A stretch of DNA of 53,718 nucleotides from a virus (IMGVR_UViG_3300030380_002559:1-53718); one strand, 5' to 3'; numbered from the stretch's first letter, positions 4,003 to 36,412 are shown. Notes: a model not told the origin generated them from the sequence alone. Numbers and translations: made by a program.

Positions 4003-4658
4003 CAGCTAATAATCCTCGGAACTAAACGAAGACTCGCTCTGTCTCGATCTTCTGACGCAGCTCGCGCAAATTCTTCATCGTACACGCCTTTTAGAAGTGC
4101 GACTCGGTCAGGGGCTATTTTCATGCTAAGATAGTAGGCCAACCCTGCGACTAAACAAGGGAAAAACCTAAACGGAAGATCAAAATCGTTCGTGTATATA
4201 TCAGCATCGTCTATGCGAACTAAGCGATAATAAATAATTTTATCAGTAGAGTTTTCTGGTGCTTGCCATAAGTTTACAACAGGATTTACCTGTCTATCTA
4301 CAAAAAACTGGGAAGGCTTACCTTTATCTGATTTAGTGGGAATGTTTAAATACTCACCACGACCGATGCGAGTCATAGTTGTGTCGGTACTACCTCTACG
4401 AAGAACCATTTCTAAGATATCAATCGTATCCGCGCCAAGCGTATAGCTAGAGGTTCCTTCAGTCAAAGTAGTAGTGACCTGTTCAATAGTAAACAGGTTG
4501 ACGCCTCGATTCGCCCACTCAGCTAACATGAGGTTTAAGGAACGTCGCGCAGTGCGGAGACTATATCCAGTACGAACCTCTACACCACAACGCTCGTATG
4601 CTTCTTCTATTGCGTCGGAAACATCAATATTAAAATTCCGAGAGCCAGAAACAGCCAT
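4002..4658 (-). CDS. Head-tail connector or tail tubular-type protein
   Basis: 218 residues from the ATG at 4658. I prefer this start over the GTG one codon upstream because the ATG shares its A with the TGA of the upstream gene, which points to coupled translation. The N-terminal helices (DVSDAIEEAYERCG, then ARRSLNLMLAEWANRGVNL) with LFTIEQVT and a later LPFRFFPCLVAGLAYYLSMKIAP match a family of podovirus adaptor proteins. The C-terminus is helical and charged. Probably part of the connector below the portal. Confidence 0.75.
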   Translation of the reverse strand: MAVSGSRNFNIDVSDAIEEAYERCGVEVRTGYSLRTARRSLNLMLAEWANRGVNLFTIEQVTTTLTEGTSSYTLGADTIDILEMVLRRGSTDTTMTRIGRGEYLNIPTKSDKGKPSQFFVDRQVNPVVNLWQAPENSTDKIIYYRLVRIDDADIYTNDFDLPFRFFPCLVAGLAYYLSMKIAPDRVALLKGVYDEEFARAASEDRDRASLRLVPRIIS

Positions 4659-5338
4659 CACTCATCTTTCGCATACAAATTATCGAAAATTTGATTCACG
4701 TCCATAGTATAGTCTAAATCAGATTTTGAATAGTGAATATGCTGTGATGGACGAAAATCTGGAGGTCCATTACCCGTTTCAAACCACGCAGGATGCGTAA
4801 CTCGAACTCGATTATTTGGTAGAGCTACAATATTTCCTGTCCATTTTCCTGCGTCTAAAAGCTCTAAAACATGGCTTTGTTTATGTTGAGCAGGGTCGTC
4901 AGCTATTTCGCTTTCTGTGTAATCCACTGTGAAATAGTATTTCGCGGGATAGAACTCACCATCAATTTTTGCTAACCACGGACAAGGATGCGCACGATCT
5001 AAACGATAAACACTATGCGTATGCGACATACAGTCCCAAGGTTGAGCAAAATGAACAGGCATCGGTTCTGGCCACTTTTCTAGTGGCGTATCACCGACTA
5101 AGGCAGTTATAGGCATTCTCGCCCACATGGCACCACCATGAACGTTCTGTTCGTCTGACTCTTCGTCCACCTCAAATCCTGTAAACAACATTTGAAAACT
5201 CAAACAACGACTCGGCATAGTCGTCACCGCAATCGCCATGGCGTGTAAAAACTCGCCGTGATATTTCATATGGTTATGCGTGTACTCCCGCCGCACCCAA
5301 CATTTAAAGTGCGTGATATTACTCTGAAGATATGGCAA
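4658..5338 (-). CDS. Conserved marine phage structural protein, function unknown
   Basis: 226 residues, His- and Trp-rich. It begins YLQSNITHFKCWVRREYT; later blocks are NVHGGAMWARMPI, FAQPWDCMSHTHS, YYFTVDYTESEIADDPAQHK and NNRVRVTHPAWF. I recognise this arrangement from many marine phages but know no assigned function. The conserved start requires a TTG at 5338, preceded by CCGGAAAA as a possible ribosome site; no ATG exists near it. It precedes the connector gene, with which it overlaps by one base. The number of His and Cys residues could suit metal binding, but no standard motif is present. Confidence 0.75.
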   Translation of the reverse strand: MPYLQSNITHFKCWVRREYTHNHMKYHGEFLHAMAIAVTTMPSRCLSFQMLFTGFEVDEESDEQNVHGGAMWARMPITALVGDTPLEKWPEPMPVHFAQPWDCMSHTHSVYRLDRAHPCPWLAKIDGEFYPAKYYFTVDYTESEIADDPAQHKQSHVLELLDAGKWTGNIVALPNNRVRVTHPAWFETGNGPPDFRPSQHIHYSKSDLDYTMDVNQIFDNLYAKDE

Positions 5339-10683: not shown

Positions 10684-11175
10684 CTAAACTGCAATAATAT
10701 CGCGGGGATCTTCAATAACCGCGAGGATTTCATCATCGTTTAACAACCGAGGCTCTGCGCCATCGATTTTAAAACGAGAACCAGCGTAACGACCAAACAT
10801 TACCCAGTCGCCTTCTTTGCACCAAGCACCGTCGGGGAATTTACCCTCGTCCTTATACGCGTCTGGCCCTAAACTAACAACGTAACCAACATTCGTTGCT
10901 AATTGATTGCGCTCACGCGTTTCATCGGAAAGGATAACACCGCCTTTAGTAGATTGAGGCAGAGTATATGGAAGAATAAGGATACGCCAGCCAGTTGGCT
11001 TTGGAAGACGTTCTAATGCAGAACGTGAATCATCCGCTTGCTCATCTGATAAAGCAAAAGTAGCAGGATTTAACAAATCTTTTTTCTTTTGCGATTCTGC
11101 TTTGTTGTTTTCAACAATTTTAGCAGCTCGGCGTTCCTCTATTACACGGTCAGGAACGTATAACCTTTTAGTCAT
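10684..11175 (-). CDS. Phage GroES-like co-chaperonin
   Basis: 163 residues with an N-terminal extension of about 58 residues, then a GroES fold: PTGWRILILPYTLP (first strand), STKGGVILSDETRERNQLA (roof and mobile-loop region), VGYVVSLGPDAYKD, CKEGDWVMFGRYAGSRF and LLNDDEILAVIEDP. This is the order of the co-chaperonin barrel. Phage versions such as T4 gp31 pair with host GroEL to fold a capsid protein; the gene lies next to scaffold and capsid. It overlaps the upstream gene by eight bases. Confidence 0.85.
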   Translation of the reverse strand: MTKRLYVPDRVIEERRAAKIVENNKAESQKKKDLLNPATFALSDEQADDSRSALERLPKPTGWRILILPYTLPQSTKGGVILSDETRERNQLATNVGYVVSLGPDAYKDEGKFPDGAWCKEGDWVMFGRYAGSRFKIDGAEPRLLNDDEILAVIEDPRDIIAV

Positions 11176-24461: not shown

Positions 24462-24734
24462 TTATGAGTCGCGCTCTATTTGATTAGCACTGATAACGTG
24501 GATATCGCCTAACGAATACCCAATAGCGCTTCCTCGCCGACGCTCTCGTTCTATAGCAAAACCTATAGCTTGATCTTCAGTCGTAGCGTTGATTTTACGG
24601 ACACGTGTATACTCAGTGATAAGGATAACTTCATACAAAGCAGAGTTATATTTTTCGTGGTCCTTTAACTTATGTTTTTTGGAACGTGTAGTTTGATTCT
24701 GCGCCCCTCGTCCACCCCCTTGTACTTTCGGCAT
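24462..24734 (-). CDS. Small protein overlapping the end of the polymerase gene
   Basis: 90 residues. The basic N-terminus PKVQGGGRGAQNQTTRSKKH is followed by an alpha/beta part (YEVILITEYTRVRKINATT, then AIGFAIERERRRGS). GGAGAAAG precedes the ATG. It overlaps the C-terminus of the polymerase by 65 bases in a different frame, which is long for this genome. Function unknown. Confidence 0.6.
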   Translation of the reverse strand: MPKVQGGGRGAQNQTTRSKKHKLKDHEKYNSALYEVILITEYTRVRKINATTEDQAIGFAIERERRRGSAIGYSLGDIHVISANQIERDS

Positions 24735-26676
24735 GGCTGATCACTTTCTCCATTTCTTTTGCGTCGCCCCAATTAGGTCCAAGGTCAACGTCTACTTTGA
24801 TTGGAACTGCTAACTCGACGCAGCTTTCCATAATCTCTTTGATCTTTTCAATCTGCTCTGGCGACTCAATCGAAAAATCTAATTCGTCGTGAACTTGGAT
24901 ATGCGGGACGATACCTTCATTGTAGAGTATCTGCATGGCCTTCTTCGTCATATCAGCCGCGCTTCCCTGAATGAGTCTATTCATTGCTTTATGGGTAAAT
25001 GCTCTCTTGATTGCGTTACCGTGTTCGGCATACGCTGTCTTGTGGTCCATAATTTTTCGTGTGCCAAATTGAGCTGGCTCCCACTTATCGAACCGGCACC
25101 GCCGCCCTAACAACGTGCGGATGCTTCCTTGTTTTGAAGCCCTCTGGACTGCTCGCTCCGATAACGCTTTTACAAACGGTACGCGGTCATGGTATTGCGC
25201 GAACAATTCTTTGCCTTCTTCTAATGTAAGTCCCAGACTATCGGAGAGCTTAGTAACACCCATTGAATAGAACAAACCAAGGTTGATGTTCTTAGCTTGT
25301 TTACGCGGTATCCCCGCCATATCGGCCACGATCTGGTGGAAGTCGGCATCGTCCTGTTGAAAGGCGTCTACGGCGTCTTGAGCGCCGCGTAGCTCCATCA
25401 AATGGGCGTAGTGTACCACGATCCGTGGCTCTTGTTGCGAATAGTCGAACGCGCCCCACTGACACCCTTCTTCTGGGATGAAGAGCGATCGAATCTTCGT
25501 ACCAATCTCAGGGTCACGTGCAGGTACTTGTTGTAAGTTCGGGTTTGAATAACTGAACCGACCTGTTACGGTACCGCCGTCGTCTGAGCGCAAGGGATGA
25601 AGTTCAGCATGAATACGACCATTAACTTGGTTTGACATTATCATCCCATCGATGAATGTCGTCCTAGCTTTATTCATCTTTCGCGCTTCAACAATTAGCT
25701 TGGGCATCTCGTGTTGATGGCCTTCTAACCAGCCTTGTTGAAATGATGGTGCGCCAAGTTCTGTACGCGGATAGTCTAAACTCAAGCCATCAAAGGCTTC
25801 CTGAATAGACTTATTTGCCCAAACCTCGATGTTCTTACCGCAAAGTTTCTTGATCTTTTGGAGAGCTGCCTCTTCTCTCGCACGAAACCATTTAGAAAGT
25901 TCATCTGCTTTATCTAAATCTACCCGTACACCACGCCACCGCATCTCGATAAGCAAGGGTGTTATCGAAGATTCAAGGTCGAAGATCGACCATAAATCTT
26001 GTCGGGTCATCTCACCCTTTTGCCATTCCCAAAGTTTAAGAGTTAATGCTGCGTCTTGCTCGGCGTATGGTCCTACATACATGGGAGGTAATTGATGTAA
26101 CCCCCCTTTAGCATCAACATTCCATGCTTCGGCGGCGTCACGTAAAAGGCTTTCGTCTTTCTTTTCTTGAAGATAGCTTTTACCAAGCGCGTTAAGAGCA
26201 TAGCTAAACCTATTTTCATCTATTAAAGGGGCAGACACCATTGTGTCAATGAGCCGGTTTTCTCGCAGAGTGATACCCTCCCTGCGCATCCACCCAATAT
26301 CGTAAGAAGCGTTGTGGCAAATAATATCTGCGCCACCGTCGATTTGAGCCTGTAACCAATTTTTGACGAGCTTCTCATTTAAGTTACCTCCTGCTTCATG
26401 CTTAACGGGTAGATAACCTGACCAAGATTCAGTAGCTACGGCGTAACCTACAACATGACCTTCGCCCCTTGCCCAACCCGCACCCTTCTCTTTAAGAGAA
26501 GGATCTCGCGTTTCAAGGTCGATACATATCTCCTTCGCTGCGGTTAGGTCAGGAAGATGTTCAGGTGGGGTCCAATCGCTATCAGGAGAGAACAAAGGCT
26601 GTTGAAGCGGGTTCTTTGGCATAGCTGGCTTCTTATCAGGTAGTGTCTGATAAGAGCTTACTATGTTATTAGTCAC
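24670..26676 (-). CDS. polA: Family A DNA polymerase with 3'-5' exonuclease
   Basis: 668 residues. Exonuclease: DLE at 53-55 (D53, E55), N122-x3-D126 in CHNASYDIGW, and Y204-x3-D208 in YAEQDAA. Polymerase: motif A D411 in FDYSQQEPR, motif B RKQAKNINLGLFYSMG at 458-473, motif C HDE at 596-598. Leu466 stands where E. coli Pol I has Phe762. The insertion between motif B and QGSAAD resembles HMO-2011-type enzymes; I see no DnaJ-type CxxCxGxG, which is reported in HMO-2011. It follows the hypermodification genes by coupled translation. Confidence 0.95.
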   Translation of the reverse strand: MTNNIVSSYQTLPDKKPAMPKNPLQQPLFSPDSDWTPPEHLPDLTAAKEICIDLETRDPSLKEKGAGWARGEGHVVGYAVATESWSGYLPVKHEAGGNLNEKLVKNWLQAQIDGGADIICHNASYDIGWMRREGITLRENRLIDTMVSAPLIDENRFSYALNALGKSYLQEKKDESLLRDAAEAWNVDAKGGLHQLPPMYVGPYAEQDAALTLKLWEWQKGEMTRQDLWSIFDLESSITPLLIEMRWRGVRVDLDKADELSKWFRAREEAALQKIKKLCGKNIEVWANKSIQEAFDGLSLDYPRTELGAPSFQQGWLEGHQHEMPKLIVEARKMNKARTTFIDGMIMSNQVNGRIHAELHPLRSDDGGTVTGRFSYSNPNLQQVPARDPEIGTKIRSLFIPEEGCQWGAFDYSQQEPRIVVHYAHLMELRGAQDAVDAFQQDDADFHQIVADMAGIPRKQAKNINLGLFYSMGVTKLSDSLGLTLEEGKELFAQYHDRVPFVKALSERAVQRASKQGSIRTLLGRRCRFDKWEPAQFGTRKIMDHKTAYAEHGNAIKRAFTHKAMNRLIQGSAADMTKKAMQILYNEGIVPHIQVHDELDFSIESPEQIEKIKEIMESCVELAVPIKVDVDLGPNWGDAKEMEKVISHAESTRGWTRGAESNYTFQKT

Positions 26677-26989
26677 CTTGACTAGTCCTGTTCCGCATCT
26701 CGGCCTCTACAAGAAAGAGATACCGACGTAAGTCACTGATATCGTCGACAAGACCCTCGGGCCGACGATCCTCATCCATAGCAGAAAAAATATCGTAATG
26801 ATGACCTAATACCTGTTTTTCAATACGATCCCATTTACGCGCCAACATCATGAAGGCACCTACACCGCCGCGCTGTTTCCAACTATCTCCGTACGACTCT
26901 TCTGCGCGTGTAAGCCCCGCGCAATCTTCATCAGCGATATTTTCTACGGTCTGTAGAATTTTACTTTTTTCTTTCGAGCCACTCGACAC
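26669..26989 (-). CDS. Nmad1-like (DUF1599-type) small protein
   Basis: 106 residues. EESYGDSWKQRGGVGAFMML, then ARKWDRIEKQV, and EGLVDDISDLRRYLFLVEAE follow the layout of DUF1599, called nucleotide modification associated domain 1: a YGxSW motif, RKxxRI, and a helix with acidic pairs. The family is tied by context to modified bases; its activity is not known. It overlaps the TS-like gene by 29 bases and the polymerase by eight, so it sits inside the coupled chain. Confidence 0.6.
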   Translation of the reverse strand: MSSGSKEKSKILQTVENIADEDCAGLTRAEESYGDSWKQRGGVGAFMMLARKWDRIEKQVLGHHYDIFSAMDEDRRPEGLVDDISDLRRYLFLVEAEMRNRTSQGD

Positions 26990-27953
26990 AGGCTTTCCTC
27001 CAATCCGGTGATTCTATTTCACGGGCCTTATCTACAGCCTCGTTAATCATTTTTTCTTTCCAGAGCCACCAAGCCTCGACCATAGGTATTGCAGTCTTCG
27101 GAAAGATTTGGTTTTGGTATCCCACATGGGATTCTCCGTTGTGGAGCCAGTCGAAGAAGAGACAGACCTCGAGATCGAACTCTTCCCATTTATCGACGAG
27201 CGGGACCGGATAGATTTCATACGCTTCATAAGGGTCTGGATGAATCCCTTGAGGAAGTTTTTCATCGAGCGGCCTCCATACGTCTAAATATACATGCGGA
27301 TTACTACTGACTTGATAATAACGCCCAAGACCCATCCCCATGCAACTAGCTAAATATTCATGAACCATACTGAAGTGAACAGCATTCGCACCGTACATAC
27401 CCCAGATCAAATCATTCGATCTGTTCGTTACGGTCATATCTAAATAATAACCAAGGCTGGCTGGTCGACCGCGTAAGAAAACTTGCGTATTACAAGGAAC
27501 GTCCTTGGATGGAGAACCAAGGTCTTGAGTACAGTCCCACATCTGAAGTACAGCACGGCGGTCTAATGGGTTCTTGCGAAGTAAATCAATAACGGTAGAT
27601 AGCTGGTCACGTCCAAACCATTCAGTCCAGCGGTAACCGTAAGCACCATTTACTAGAACACCGTCATCCGAAAAGTCAGCCATCTTCTTAGCAAACATTG
27701 TCAGAGTCTTTAGATCTTGCCGACCAGCGATCATCCACAGCCCTTCAATAAAATGAAAGAAAGGGTTACAATTACGTTCTGCACTAAATAGAACACGCTC
27801 ATCCGGTCGCTCATAAACAGTCGTGAGTGGTGTCGGGAACGACAACACCGGACCATTGCGCGAGTCCGTTTCTAACAACTGACTACTCTCCCGCAAGTTC
27901 ATAACTGCGATCTGGAAAACCTCATTGACGTTTACGCCTTGTATAACTTTCAT
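26961..27953 (-). CDS. Thymidylate synthase homologue, probably dUMP hydroxymethylase
   Basis: 330 residues. The TS fold is shown by R60 and N61 with FFHFIEGLWMIAG (N-terminal part), the catalytic C154 in DVPCNTQVF, R178-S-N-D in TVTNRSNDLIWGMYGAN, and HVYLDVW near 220. The sequence NDLIWGMYGANAVHFSM, with one residue more than the DxxxGxPFN of cellular TS, is the form found in phages that make 5-hydroxymethyl-dUMP. I therefore favour hydroxymethylation of dUMP with methylene-tetrahydrofolate, without reduction. Ordinary thymidylate synthesis remains possible. The ATG overlaps the stop of the upstream gene (ATGA). Confidence 0.85.
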   Translation of the reverse strand: MKVIQGVNVNEVFQIAVMNLRESSQLLETDSRNGPVLSFPTPLTTVYERPDERVLFSAERNCNPFFHFIEGLWMIAGRQDLKTLTMFAKKMADFSDDGVLVNGAYGYRWTEWFGRDQLSTVIDLLRKNPLDRRAVLQMWDCTQDLGSPSKDVPCNTQVFLRGRPASLGYYLDMTVTNRSNDLIWGMYGANAVHFSMVHEYLASCMGMGLGRYYQVSSNPHVYLDVWRPLDEKLPQGIHPDPYEAYEIYPVPLVDKWEEFDLEVCLFFDWLHNGESHVGYQNQIFPKTAIPMVEAWWLWKEKMINEAVDKAREIESPDWRKACVEWLERKK

Positions 27954-28777
27954 GGGTACTTTCCTCTTGGTGCGCCTTCTCCATTACGCACTCTTTCATA
28001 TTTATCAAACTCGCAAAGACTATGCTCGATATCGCGCATCTCTAATCGCGGTAGGAAATCTTTAGCTAAATATTCGGATGAGCATAGTAAAAGTTCGTGC
28101 ATCTCCTTCGTAAAATTATGCTTACGGCTCTTAAAGTTCAGAGGTCTACCGTATATGCGATTCAGACCGCGCATAGCACCGGGACCAGCATTAGCCCATG
28201 TATAGATGTCATCGGCCTCATCAAGAAAGTGTGTATGACGCAAGTCAGTAATTATTTCATATGACATGAAGGCTCCTAGGTACGGAAATTGCATAAACAA
28301 GTTCCATGAACCTCGGAGGTTGTTCGAGCGGATATCGTCGGCGAGTGTTTTGCGAAGGGGCCAAATGTTGTTAACGCACCAGATAACCCCATCGACCTTG
28401 TCCATTCCGTCGGGAGTTTTAATTATGTACCCACCGGTCACATATTTAGGTTGCTTCTTGATTTCTTCTCGGGCAATCTCTGGGTTCCAATCGACATGGA
28501 GATTATGGTCAAGAAGTGTTTGGCCTGTCTCTATTAGATTAAACCAACGAAAGATAACCGTGGCCATGAGAACATCGTCGTCCCCATTCAAGGGATCGCG
28601 CATCTTTTCCCTAAACCAAACGGTTGTCTTGTCGTTTTCTCTAAAGGGATTAGTAAAGCGATAGGTCTTTAAAATCTCGTCGTCAGTCCAATGGTTGCGG
28701 GAGAGGCCCATATCCTTCTTCAGAAAGATACGGTGCCTCTCCTCCATCCACCAAAAGAACCGTTCGATCGATTCCAT
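27950..28777 (-). CDS. 5-hmdU DNA kinase helical-domain (HMUDK_hel/aGPT-Pplase) protein
   Basis: 275 residues, all helical. WTDDEIL at 30-36, RFTNPFREND at 40-49, GGYIIKT at 115-121, LGAFMSYEIITDL at 167-179, ANAGPGAMRGLNR at 195-207 and CEFDKYERVR at 255-264 match, in order, the family named alpha-glutamyl/putrescinyl thymine pyrophosphorylase or 5-hmdU DNA kinase helical domain. It acts on 5-hydroxymethyluracil in DNA in known hypermodified phages. The HhH-glycosylase-like fold is known of the family. No P-loop is present in this protein. Coupled on both sides (TAATG and ATGA). Confidence 0.85.
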   Translation of the reverse strand: MESIERFFWWMEERHRIFLKKDMGLSRNHWTDDEILKTYRFTNPFRENDKTTVWFREKMRDPLNGDDDVLMATVIFRWFNLIETGQTLLDHNLHVDWNPEIAREEIKKQPKYVTGGYIIKTPDGMDKVDGVIWCVNNIWPLRKTLADDIRSNNLRGSWNLFMQFPYLGAFMSYEIITDLRHTHFLDEADDIYTWANAGPGAMRGLNRIYGRPLNFKSRKHNFTKEMHELLLCSSEYLAKDFLPRLEMRDIEHSLCEFDKYERVRNGEGAPRGKYP

Positions 28778-29616
28778 TACTTTTTCCTCAAGATCCAGTT
28801 GACATTGTTAGCTGTCTCCGGATACGCCGTGGCAAGAATCACACGTTGCCAGTGCTTATCGAACCGCCCTTGAATATCGTCTATCACGTGCTGTGGCCAG
28901 CGTAGATTAGCACGATGGTTACGCTTGAAGTTATTCATTTGCGTAAACGTGCCGTAGTGCCGTTCGATGGTATAGTATTTTTCGAGGAGTTCTTTGAGTT
29001 CTTCGTACCCCCATTCGTAGATGTGGTCTTTTGGGAGGATGTCGTTTGACCCATCATGGTTCGGCGTCGAGACATATGCAATGCCATTCGGACGGAGTTT
29101 ACGACACGATGCTTCGATCCAAGGTTCAATGAACTCCCTCCCCATGTGTTCGATTACTTCCGTTGTCATGAAGACATCCACGGACTCGTCCTCAACAGGA
29201 GGTTCAGGGTCCACGGTTAGGTCTTGGAGAACGATCCGGCCTTTATTACCTGTCATGGTTTTGAACCATTGATGTTCAGTAACTGGATCGTTATCATCTA
29301 CCCACCAATCGTCGAGACAAGCGGGATCAATATCCATACCGGTATAACTATTAACAATCTCCTCTTTACGAGAGACGAACGCCTTGTAGAGATAACGAAG
29401 CGTCCAAACTTCTCCGCATCCGATTTCAAGGATGTCAACAGGTCGACCAAGCTCTTTAGCTTTGCCCATAATTAACTGACCCATTTTACAAAACCGGCTG
29501 ATATGGGCCAATTCATCTGGTCGCCAGTTTGCTAACGTACCCGCACTGGCAATATCCATGCGGGTGTTTTTAGAGTTGTTCGCGTTTACCGCGAGTTTTC
29601 TACGAATAGAAGCCAT
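28777..29616 (-). CDS. SAM-dependent methyltransferase, class I
   Basis: 279 residues from the ATG at 29616, chosen because GGAGAGG stands six bases before; the longer frame to 29766 runs 62 bases into the previous gene. Motif I DILEIGCGE at 61-69, the acidic strand end TGMDID at 92-97, TTEVIEHMG at 151-159 and STPNHDG near 180. No target-recognition domain or DNA-methylase catalytic motif (DPPY, PC) is seen, so a nucleobase-amino or cytosine DNA methylase of ordinary type is unlikely. Place in the hypermodification cluster suggests it methylates the thymine adduct or a precursor. Confidence 0.8.
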   Translation of the reverse strand: MASIRRKLAVNANNSKNTRMDIASAGTLANWRPDELAHISRFCKMGQLIMGKAKELGRPVDILEIGCGEVWTLRYLYKAFVSRKEEIVNSYTGMDIDPACLDDWWVDDNDPVTEHQWFKTMTGNKGRIVLQDLTVDPEPPVEDESVDVFMTTEVIEHMGREFIEPWIEASCRKLRPNGIAYVSTPNHDGSNDILPKDHIYEWGYEELKELLEKYYTIERHYGTFTQMNNFKRNHRANLRWPQHVIDDIQGRFDKHWQRVILATAYPETANNVNWILRKK

Positions 29617-29704: not shown

Positions 29705-30127
29705 CTAGCTAGGAATCCGAATGTATTCCTTGTCGACCATCTCCCGATGATAGTGTTTGTAGACACGGTCTACAGGTTGTTTAGTTGGAAGCAGACCCTC
29801 CAACTTTTCCCAGAACATACCAATAGTGACGCCATCCTTACCAAACTCTTCGAGCTTTTCGAGGATAAGCATCATCTGACGCGGTCCTTTTTCTGGGTAT
29901 TTATTAAATACGATGGTCGTACCGACTTTCAGCCGACCAGTATTGGAGCGCCCTTGTGCGGCCTTTTTCTTAGCTTCGGTCACCATAACTGTTTCTTCAG
30001 ACATAATCTTCTTTCCTTTATGATACTCAGAAGGCCACCGATGGCGGGGCCAAGTTTTCTGTTCCCCAAAACCATGATCGGGAGAATATTTCCACGAATC
30101 GGGTCCGACTTGCATCCAACCACCCAT
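29705..30127 (-). CDS. Winged-helix-like small protein (paralogue C)
   Basis: 140 residues. GGAGG six bases before the ATG at 30127 supports the long form; an internal ATG at 30004 has AAAGGAAA and could give a shorter product. The Trp-rich N-terminus is followed by VTEAKKKAAQGRSNTGRLKV and a C-terminal domain MMLILEKLEEFGKDGVTIGM, then PVDRVYKHYHREMVDKEYIR, which is the same domain as in the genes at 17036 and 17736. Probably a regulator; it stands at the head of the hypermodification genes. Confidence 0.65.
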   Translation of the reverse strand: MGGWMQVGPDSWKYSPDHGFGEQKTWPRHRWPSEYHKGKKIMSEETVMVTEAKKKAAQGRSNTGRLKVGTTIVFNKYPEKGPRQMMLILEKLEEFGKDGVTIGMFWEKLEGLLPTKQPVDRVYKHYHREMVDKEYIRIPS

Positions 30128-34689: not shown

Positions 34690-34963
34690 GGTTAGAAGCT
34701 AATTACCGTATAGTCTGTCCTATAGGTTTTAAAGGACGTTTTACTGTTTAAGTCCGTCATAATCTCATAATCTCATAAAAAGGTATCTAAGTAGCTGTTG
34801 CTACTGAGTAACTTTCTTATGACAATAGCGATGACATTATGAGATAGATAAGCCGTCGCGAGAGAGTTCTGAGGTCACAGCAAATACTTATGTACTACAA
34901 CAACATTAGCTTTACTCGGGAGGTATACTATATTATAAATCCCGAAACAGGTAGGTGCTTTTT
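34690..34963. other. Divergent control region with repeats
   Basis: Region between the minus-strand replication operon and the plus-strand SNF2 unit. It holds TCATAATC repeated at an 8-bp period (34758-34779), a GTCCTATAGG...AGGAC inverted repeat near 34713, the direct 15-mer ATGACATTATGAGAT (34831-34845) and the inverted 14-mer (34847-34860) shared with 19.3-19.44 kb, and the plus-strand promoter at 34911-34939. No gene is supported. Confidence 0.6.
34911..34945 (+). promoter_or_regulatory. Plus-strand promoter with flanking inverted repeat
   Basis: TTTACT at 34911 is followed by 17 bases and TATAAA at 34934. TCGGGA (34916-34921) and TCCCGA (34940-34945) form an inverted repeat around the -10 region, a likely operator. 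TATACTATATTATA here belongs to the same AT-rich family as the minus-strand promoters. A short leader of about 20 bases precedes the SNF2 start. Confidence 0.55.
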
Positions 34964-36412
34964 ATGACATTCACGTTTAAAACTAAACCGTATGATCATC
35001 AGCTACAAGCGCTCGAGGCTTCTTACCAAAGCGAATCCTTCGCGTTACTTATGGACATGGGAACTGGAAAGTCCAAGGTTCTTGTAGATACCCTCGCGTA
35101 CCTAGATAGTCAGGATTTAATTAATTCAGCTATCATTCTTGCTCCGAAGGGCGTTTACAAAAACTGGGTCGGTAAGGAACTTCCAGTCCACATGCCCGAT
35201 ATGGTAAAACACAAAGTTGCATATTGGGCTTCCCCTTTAACGAAAGCGCATAAAGAAGCCATTCGAGAAATATGGAGGCCAGACGACAACCTTCACATCC
35301 TCGTTATGAATATCGAAGCGCTATCTACTGGGAAAGCTGAAGAAGTCGCTACAAAGTTTATTTCTTCGCATGGTGGTTCGACATTAATCGCTATCGACGA
35401 GTCGACGGTAATTAAGAACCATAAAGCGCGTAGAACAAAAGCGGCTATTCGTATTGCTAAACGCTGTAAGTACAAAAGGATTCTTACAGGGTCGCCGATT
35501 ACTAAAACACCGCTAGATTTATTTGCGCAGTTTCAATTCTTAGGTGAACAGCTATTAGGTTTTAAATCCTACTACGCTTTTTGCGCTCGTTATGCAGATA
35601 TGATAAAACGCAGTGCGTCTGGTGGGTCGCACCAATATAACCAGATCCTTGGGTTCCGTAACCTCGACGAGCTTACTGAATCTATCAAGCCGTATTCGTT
35701 TCGAGTTACAAAGGAAGAGTGTCTTGATCTACCGGAAAAGACATATACAATGCGCTCAATCGAGCTAACGCCCGAACAAAAGAAAATGTACAACCAAATG
35801 AAGAAGACCGCTGTGGCGTTACTGGACGACATGGATATGGTAACTGCGAACGCCGTTATCACGCAGCTTCTTAGGCTACATCAAATTAGTTGCGGCTTTG
35901 TAAATACGGACGATGGGAATATTGTCCGGTTCAATAACAACCGTATGCCAGAGCTGTTAGCTATCTTAGAAGAAGTAAACGGCAAAGCGATTATTTGGGC
36001 TAATTACCGACACGATATTATGGCTATCGAAATGGAGTTAGCAAGAGCTTATGGTTCAAGCTCCGTAGCTACTTATTTTGGGGACACAGACGGTGAGGCG
36101 CGTCAAGATATTGTTGATCGATTTCAAACTGACGAAGATCTAAGGTTCTTCGTTGGACAGCCGAGAACAGGTGGATATGGGTTAACTTTAACTGCCGCAT
36201 CAACAGTAATTTATTATAGTAACAGCTACGATCTTGAAGTAAGGTTGCAATCAGAAGACCGTGCGCATAGAATAGGTCAAACGAACGCGGTTACTTACAT
36301 CGACATAATCGCGCAAGGTACGGTCGACGAAAAGATAGTCGGTGCTCTACGCAAGAAAATAAATATCGCGACACAAGTGCTAGAGGAAGATTGGAAAAAA
36401 TGGCTGATCTAA
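34964..36412 (+). CDS. SNF2-family superfamily 2 helicase/ATPase
   Basis: 482 residues from the ATG at 34964 (GGTAGGTG seven bases before; a GTG at 34955 is also in frame). Motif I MGTGKSK at 32-38, motif II DEST at 145-148 (in place of DEAH), motif III TGSPIT at 175-180, motif VI QSEDRAHRIGQ at about 429-439. This is the SNF2 arrangement. Marine podoviruses often carry one; it may remodel protein-DNA complexes in replication or packaging. One of two plus-strand genes in the window. Confidence 0.9.
   Translation: MTFTFKTKPYDHQLQALEASYQSESFALLMDMGTGKSKVLVDTLAYLDSQDLINSAIILAPKGVYKNWVGKELPVHMPDMVKHKVAYWASPLTKAHKEAIREIWRPDDNLHILVMNIEALSTGKAEEVATKFISSHGGSTLIAIDESTVIKNHKARRTKAAIRIAKRCKYKRILTGSPITKTPLDLFAQFQFLGEQLLGFKSYYAFCARYADMIKRSASGGSHQYNQILGFRNLDELTESIKPYSFRVTKEECLDLPEKTYTMRSIELTPEQKKMYNQMKKTAVALLDDMDMVTANAVITQLLRLHQISCGFVNTDDGNIVRFNNNRMPELLAILEEVNGKAIIWANYRHDIMAIEMELARAYGSSSVATYFGDTDGEARQDIVDRFQTDEDLRFFVGQPRTGGYGLTLTAASTVIYYSNSYDLEVRLQSEDRAHRIGQTNAVTYIDIIAQGTVDEKIVGALRKKINIATQVLEEDWKKWLI

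Follow-up and report, generated by a model that had tools for sequence, protein, structure and literature searches.

A Putative Kinase-Free Thymidine-Hypermodification Cassette With a HEN1-Like Methyltransferase in an HTVC023P/DSL-LC04-Like Phage

Organization and Conservation of the Cluster

The viral contig IMGVR_UViG_3300030380_002559:1-53718, the whole of which (53,718 nucleotides) is referred to here as the window, carries four overlapping genes next to polA that encode a methyltransferase (MT), an HMUDK_hel protein (HEL), a thymidylate synthase homologue (TS) and a small conserved protein (sm). In our best reading, these four genes form a minimal thymidine-hypermodification cassette that is free of a kinase, and 5-hydroxymethyl-uracil is very probably what it produces instead of thymine. 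Along the minus strand the order of transcription is AEP-type primase, UvrD-type helicase, an open reading frame (ORF) of 140 aa, MT, HEL, TS, sm and polA, with the following features:

28777..29616, minus strand: MT, class I S-adenosylmethionine (SAM)-dependent methyltransferase, 279 aa (PF13489 6e-9, PF08241 4e-7)
27950..28777, minus strand: HEL, HMUDK_hel protein, 275 aa, DNA-glycosylase-like (HhH) fold, free of kinase fusion (PF18723 8e-41)
26961..27953, minus strand: TS, putative 5-hydroxymethyl-dUMP synthase, 330 aa, with E70, D151, C154 and N190 (PF00303 2e-17, phrog_5131 6e-102)
26669..26989, minus strand: sm, small conserved protein, 106 aa (alignment with 30 invariant columns)
24670..26676, minus strand: polA, DNA polymerase I of family A, 668 aa, GTG start (PF00476 2e-65, PF01612)
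29705..30127, minus strand: conserved ORF 5' of MT, 140 aa, present in the window's close relatives and not in distant ones

The coordinates, overlaps and strand that a preliminary description of this DNA gave for MT, HEL, TS, sm and polA are exact. The MT stop and HEL start have one base in common (TAATG at 28777), HEL and TS overlap by ATGA (27950-27953), TS and sm by 29 bases (26961-26989) and sm and polA by 8 bases, while the MT start at 29616 agrees with every homologue in the family alignment. The 140-aa ORF is probably outside the core cassette.

A profile search of IMG/VR with MT returned 252 relatives, and the counts of MT-HEL loci given here refer to the best 80, of which 79 have enough downstream sequence. 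HEL comes after MT in 79/79 loci (immediately in 74, beyond one small ORF in 5), and TS and sm come next if the contig extends far enough, usually with polA as well. Across the loci kept, MT identity to the window runs from 95% to about 50%, and the order MT-HEL-TS-sm-polA is found in dozens of contigs down to that lower level. Values of dN/dS of about 0.03-0.09 (near 0.03-0.05 for MT) indicate strong purifying selection on both MT and HEL. Because the gene order recurs so widely and purifying selection acts on MT and HEL, the cluster is genuine and not a product of chance. As the phages are related and a single MT/HEL clade is not rejected, the linkage of the two genes speaks for conservation over a long time, not for numerous separate joining events; repeated joining of MT to HEL was considered and is unsupported, one MT clade not being rejected (approximately unbiased test, AU, p 0.69).

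The protein sm is a constant member of the MT-HEL-TS cassette, recognizable by the motif YGDSWKxRGGxGAFMMLARKWDR...DDIxDLRRYL, and is also found in HEL-TS cassettes of several other kinds, including kinase-bearing ones such as L055. It had been described as Nmad1-like, a label we discard: none of 18 homologues matches any Pfam family at E up to 1, Nmad1 (DUF1599) included, the PHROG matches of sm are weak, and it has no PDB relative.

The TS Homologue as a Putative 5-Hydroxymethyl-dUMP Synthase

The Asn of thymidylate synthases at the position deciding the base is Asn177 in the E. coli enzyme. Three residues ahead of the catalytic Cys, hydroxymethylases carry Asp (or Glu) and thymidylate synthases Leu, and hydroxylation by the T4 dCMP hydroxymethylase requires this Asp; in the same T4 enzyme Asp179 is the cytosine determinant, in place of the Asn of thymidylate synthase (PMC6400193). 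In a residue comparison with SPO1 gp29, T4 gp42 and E. coli ThyA, the window TS has D151-V-P-C154 and the uracil-type N190, whereas ThyA is without the Asp at -3 from the Cys. This Asp-Cys-Asn set is common to the window TS, SPO1 gp29 (annotated dUMP hydroxymethylase) and the enzymes of M6, PaMx11 and ViI, and is present in 78/78 alignable TS of the MT-HEL loci; with SPO1 gp29 the likeness covers all four active-site residues (E, D at -3, C and N), although the SPO1 stretch viewed around gp29 has no annotated MT or HEL. Where the dCMP enzymes have Ser or Thr two residues before the active-site Tyr (T4 Ser94-x-Tyr96), the window TS has G-A-Y. Since SPO1 gp29 itself has A-P-Y at this site, Ser/Thr-x-Tyr does not define the dUMP type. 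The window TS is 44-45% identical to M6-type enzymes.

Because Asp151, Cys154 and Asn190 are as in the SPO1 dUMP hydroxymethylase, TS should make 5-hydroxymethyl-dUMP (5-hmdUMP) and not dTMP, an assignment that is well supported at the level of sequence. The preliminary description had proposed both a dUMP-specific TS homologue of hydroxymethylase type and thymine as the likeliest modified base, and we arrive at the same two proposals.

HEL and Its Partners

HEL matches PF18723 at 140.7 bits (curated cut-off 25) over profile positions 4-277 of 281, and this full-length match bears out the earlier identification of the 275-residue protein as HMUDK_hel. It is 42-44% identical to the PaMx11/Epa5 proteins. 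Its AlphaFold2 model (predicted local distance difference test, pLDDT, 95) is nearly all helix, and the nearest folds found with Foldseek are 8-oxoguanine DNA glycosylases and the 5-phosphomethyl-dU glycinyltransferase PaMx11 gp46 (8z2m), with weak E-values and probabilities of 0.66-0.98. The conserved core includes Y173, E174, D178, D190, W194, GPG198-200, RG203-204, R207, R248, E251 and CEFDKY255-260 and is identical in kinase-linked, MT-linked and other HELs, while the HEL tree holds at least 10 switches of partner type. In sister phages with no kinase nearby, the partners of HEL are TAGT glycosyltransferases, an FkbM methyltransferase with a GT-B glycosyltransferase, or glycosyltransferases with radical-SAM enzymes. 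Kinases, glycosyltransferases and MT would share one target hydroxyl, which suggests that HEL presents 5-hydroxymethyl-2'-deoxyuridine (5-hmdU) to a changeable catalytic partner.

Several of these sister cassettes deserve description in their own right. At L035:10822-13102 and eight similar loci (L037-L043, L045), the stretch from HEL to TS holds, in this order, an FkbM-type methyltransferase, sm and a GT-B glycosyltransferase, an arrangement suggestive of 5-hmdU being decorated with both a sugar and a methyl group. A TET-associated glycosyltransferase (TAGT, PF20691) occurs in the HEL-TS cassettes of L068:11626-12417, L048, L052, L054, L057, L062, L065, L069 and L080. Between HEL and TS in L032:6428-9472, L034 and L036 lie a fused cytidylyltransferase-cupin (mannose-6-P isomerase-like), a glycosyltransferase-like protein and an SPASM radical-SAM enzyme. 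A 2-oxoglutarate (2OG)-Fe(II) oxygenase (PF13532, L069:4651-5235) stands immediately 5' of HEL, in the slot of MT or the kinase.

MT in Place of the Kinase

The thymidine hypermodifications of phages M6, ViI and phi W-14 proceed via 5-hmdU that is phosphorylated in DNA (PMC6449724). The cluster of M6 and PaMx11 (Mesyanzhinovviridae) consists of a TS homologue, a kinase (PF18748), HMUDK_hel (PF18723) and the amino acid:DNA transferase ADDT (PF18724). In both phages HEL directly follows a P-loop protein, which in PaMx11 matches PF18748 (5-hmdU DNA kinase) weakly, and ADDT and other tailoring enzymes lie farther upstream. The window resembles them in its HEL and TS, which are 37-45% identical, and in the HEL-TS order 5' of a related polA. 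However, it is without the kinase, ADDT and the radical SAM, pyridoxal phosphate (PLP), flavin (FAD) or acetyl tailoring genes, it has MT in the slot that the kinase holds in M6 and PaMx11, and sm is added.

The kinase was sought with a profile of ten 5-hmdU DNA kinases, which matched two control records at 1e-87. No 5-hmdU DNA kinase was found with it in 13 whole MT-bearing records (the window and 12 others), and no kinase stands near MT at any of the 80 IMG/VR loci; a kinase hidden elsewhere in the genome was rejected on the strength of the whole-record search. The sole P-loop motif of the window belongs to the helicase. No window ORF matches the ADDT proteins M6 gp51 and PaMx11 gp46, and no ADDT is labeled near the MT loci tabulated.

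A HEN1-Like Methyltransferase

MT matches generic Pfam models only (Methyltransf_11/12/23/25/31), with no match to a DNA-methylase model of the m5C or m4C/m6A classes. In a profile comparison with the PDB, HENMT1 and bacterial Hen1 come out on top, followed by UbiG-type O-methyltransferases, and HEN1-type 2'-O-methyltransferases make up 4/5 of the best PDB sequence relatives; two "type 12" entries among these relatives are presumably bacterial Hen1. The metal ligands of human HEN1 are E132, E135, H136 and H181 (PMC10781085). E153, E156, H157 and H198 of MT line up with this tetrad (E-x-x-E-H ... H), in which MT and the HEN1 small-RNA 2'-O-methyltransferases are alike, and the four residues are invariant in a family alignment of 29 MTs spanning both MT lineages. 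HEN1 carries an F-x-P-P motif ahead of the SAM domain. Because this motif is missing from MT, we call the protein HEN1-like and do not file it as HEN1; it differs further in having no RNA-binding domains and in its genetic context. By analogy, and as speculation, the hydroxymethyl oxygen and the C4 carbonyl of the base might chelate the metal as the 2',3'-diol of RNA would.

Remote Homologues in a Cytosine Setting

Among 50,697 phage records, MT homologues at E < 1e-3 are confined to five records of four phages: Stenotrophomonas phage AXL3, Pseudoxanthomonas phage PW916, ctUtU524 and ct3Et533. Each has in a row MT, a nucleoside triphosphate (NTP) pyrophosphohydrolase, a TS homologue and a dCMP deaminase, some with an annotated kinase, and 22 further AXL3-type loci from IMG/VR show the same gene row, barring contig ends and a few unlabeled ORFs. 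A remote search from the ct3Et533 MT gave no additional loci. In AXL3 the cluster reads MT, NTP pyrophosphohydrolase, kinase, "thymidylate synthase" and dCMP deaminase. It is like the window in that a full-length homologous MT (30% identity) adjoins a pyrimidine hydroxymethylase, and unlike it in that the hydroxymethylase is of cytosine type and HEL is missing: in 23/23 cases the base-deciding residue of the TS homologues in AXL3-type loci is Asp, so that these should be dCMP hydroxymethylases, and HEL was found in 0/13 AXL3-type records searched whole. Of 37 restriction enzymes, 35 fail to cut AXL3 DNA, and the other two have sites made up of A/T only (PMC7504290), a pattern that fits modified C. 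The feature common to the uracil and cytosine settings is the 5-hydroxymethyl group on the pyrimidine, which makes this group the most economical MT substrate.

Two observations concern the AXL3-type loci themselves. AXL3 gp28 (L123:7184-7993) and its PW916 counterpart (L147:3280-4098) are annotated as thymidylate synthase or deoxyuridylate hydroxymethyltransferase, while their residues, D-x-x-C and a base-position Asp, indicate a dCMP hydroxymethylase. Furthermore, a Pfam-less family lies 5' of MT, usually adjoining it, in most AXL3-type loci (L123:4174-4773 and homologues) and could play the part of HEL for hydroxymethylcytosine.

Proposed Pathway and Alternatives

We propose that TS turns dUMP into 5-hmdUMP, the well-supported step, which would then be raised to the triphosphate so that polA inserts 5-hmdU for some or all thymine. 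HEL, with its glycosylase-like fold, would locate and flip 5-hmdU in DNA and present the hydroxymethyl group, and MT, as a metal-dependent HEN1-like O-methyltransferase, would methylate the hydroxyl to give 5-(methoxymethyl)-2'-deoxyuridine (5-methoxymethyl-dU) as the final product, which would conceal the DNA from nucleases of the host. On this view, HEL would serve as a general adaptor for 5-hmdU with an exchangeable partner, be it kinase, glycosyltransferase or methyltransferase, acting on the same hydroxyl; sm is assigned no role in the pathway. Taken as a whole, we favor this route, if by a modest degree. Its broader form is more tentative and, to our minds, somewhat doubtful: the MT family would cap 5-hydroxymethyl pyrimidines in general, giving 5-methoxymethyl-dU in aquatic podoviruses, which have HEL, and 5-methoxymethyl-dC in AXL3-type phages, which lack it, with HEL as a general adaptor for phosphoryl-, glycosyl- and methyl-transferases.

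A number of points weigh against O-methylation by MT in concert with HEL. The resemblance to HEN1 is at profile level (E 2.5e-8), MT has W31-R-P-D34 instead of F-x-P-P, its AlphaFold model is only fair (pLDDT 80), and a fold search with it leads to generic class I methyltransferases with no hint of the substrate. The HEL fold matches are all at E > 0.1. The MT of the cytosine-type phages has no HEL to work with, so MT does not necessarily depend on HEL as a partner, and the two MT/HEL clades are perhaps one lineage, so that the 79 loci are not independent events. MT could also have the free nucleotide as its substrate instead of DNA, or its target could be a different atom of the base.

The nucleotide-level alternative, in which MT methylates 5-hmdUMP or 5-hmdUTP before incorporation and HEL has a separate job on DNA, draws on the AXL3-type loci, where MT adjoins nucleotide-pool enzymes (NTP pyrophosphohydrolase, kinase and dCMP deaminase) and HEL is lacking. 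However, the closest solved sequence relatives of MT, the HEN1 proteins, act on nucleic acid, and MT of the window's lineage is always coupled to HEL with its glycosylase-like fold, so that we regard this order of events as unlikely. An ordinary M6-type pathway appears more improbable again: HEL would work with a host or unrecognized phage kinase, a host enzyme would add an amino acid, and MT would trim or methylate the final group. The kinship of HEL and TS to the PaMx11/M6 proteins, whose route uses the 5-hmdU DNA kinase, speaks for it, but the searches of the 13 MT-bearing records and the surroundings of the 80 loci yielded no homologue of that kinase (a kinase of another fold being beyond their reach), no ADDT homologue lies near the tabulated MT loci, and MT occupies the kinase position. 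MT could, finally, be a separate enzyme whose substrate is RNA ends or a host protein and which only happens to be encoded next to thymine-modification genes, given that class I methyltransferases have diverse substrates and that HEN1 proteins methylate RNA 3' ends (PMC10781085). Yet MT is tied to HEL-TS in all 79 loci, a separate MT lineage is tied to cytosine-type hydroxymethylases in the remote homologues examined, and no RNA-repair partner genes were seen nearby; of the three alternatives we give this one the least credence.

Kinship of the Phage and Novelty of the Cassette

The closest named relatives of polA and the terminase are 023Pt_psg01, the Pelagibacter phages HTVC023P and HTVC027P, and phage DSL-LC04, with polA closest to 023Pt_psg01/HTVC023P. 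HMO-2011 is not among the listed best matches of either protein, and the description of the phage as HMO-2011-like was dropped in favor of these HTVC023P-type relatives. On sequence kinship, this is an HTVC023P/DSL-LC04-like virus of aquatic bacteria; a marine origin, also suggested earlier, is consistent with its HTVC023P-type relatives and has no basis beyond them. Three of the four named relatives were read, and in these the helicase adjoins polA or is separated from it by two small ORFs, with no cassette there, so the cassette of the window lies between helicase and polA at a junction that these three leave empty. Other contigs of this type have different modification enzymes in the slot.

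TS and aG/PT-PPlase1, an older name of HEL, have been reported near polA in HTVC023P-type uncultivated pelagiphages of clades V, VIII and IX (PMC9599517). These phages are like the window both in lineage, by polA and terminase, and in the TS-HEL pair near polA. However, the text of that study has no mention of a methyltransferase, or any word starting with "methyl", leaves the missing kinase unmentioned and assumes the M6 mechanism. The TS-HEL pair is therefore already published, while the methyltransferase version of the thymine module is, as the preliminary description had expected, a new variant relative to a comparison set that excludes the 2018 and 2022 thymidine hypermodification papers of Lee et al. 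A literature search, limited to one library of papers, found no methoxymethyl pyrimidines in phage DNA.

Elsewhere in the window, an SNF2/DEAD-type helicase (phrog_62) at 34955-36412 on the plus strand is the sole exception to the minus strand among the genes identified. A GroES-like co-chaperonin (phrog_3188, 10684-11175) and a ferredoxin-family PHROG match (phrog_3704, 4658-5338) lie among the structural genes.

Implications

If this reading is correct, modification by three enzymes without a kinase, with an O-methyl group as the last addition, would be a simpler route than those of M6, ViI and phi W-14 and would represent a new disguise for phage DNA. It would also indicate a role for the unexplained HMUDK_hel domain. 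The phage "thymidylate synthases" adjoining these MTs should not make dTMP, and their annotations would need correcting. In AXL3, a dCMP hydroxymethylase would account for the resistance to enzymes with G/C in their sites, and this resistance would be explained by the same MT family acting on hydroxymethylcytosine.

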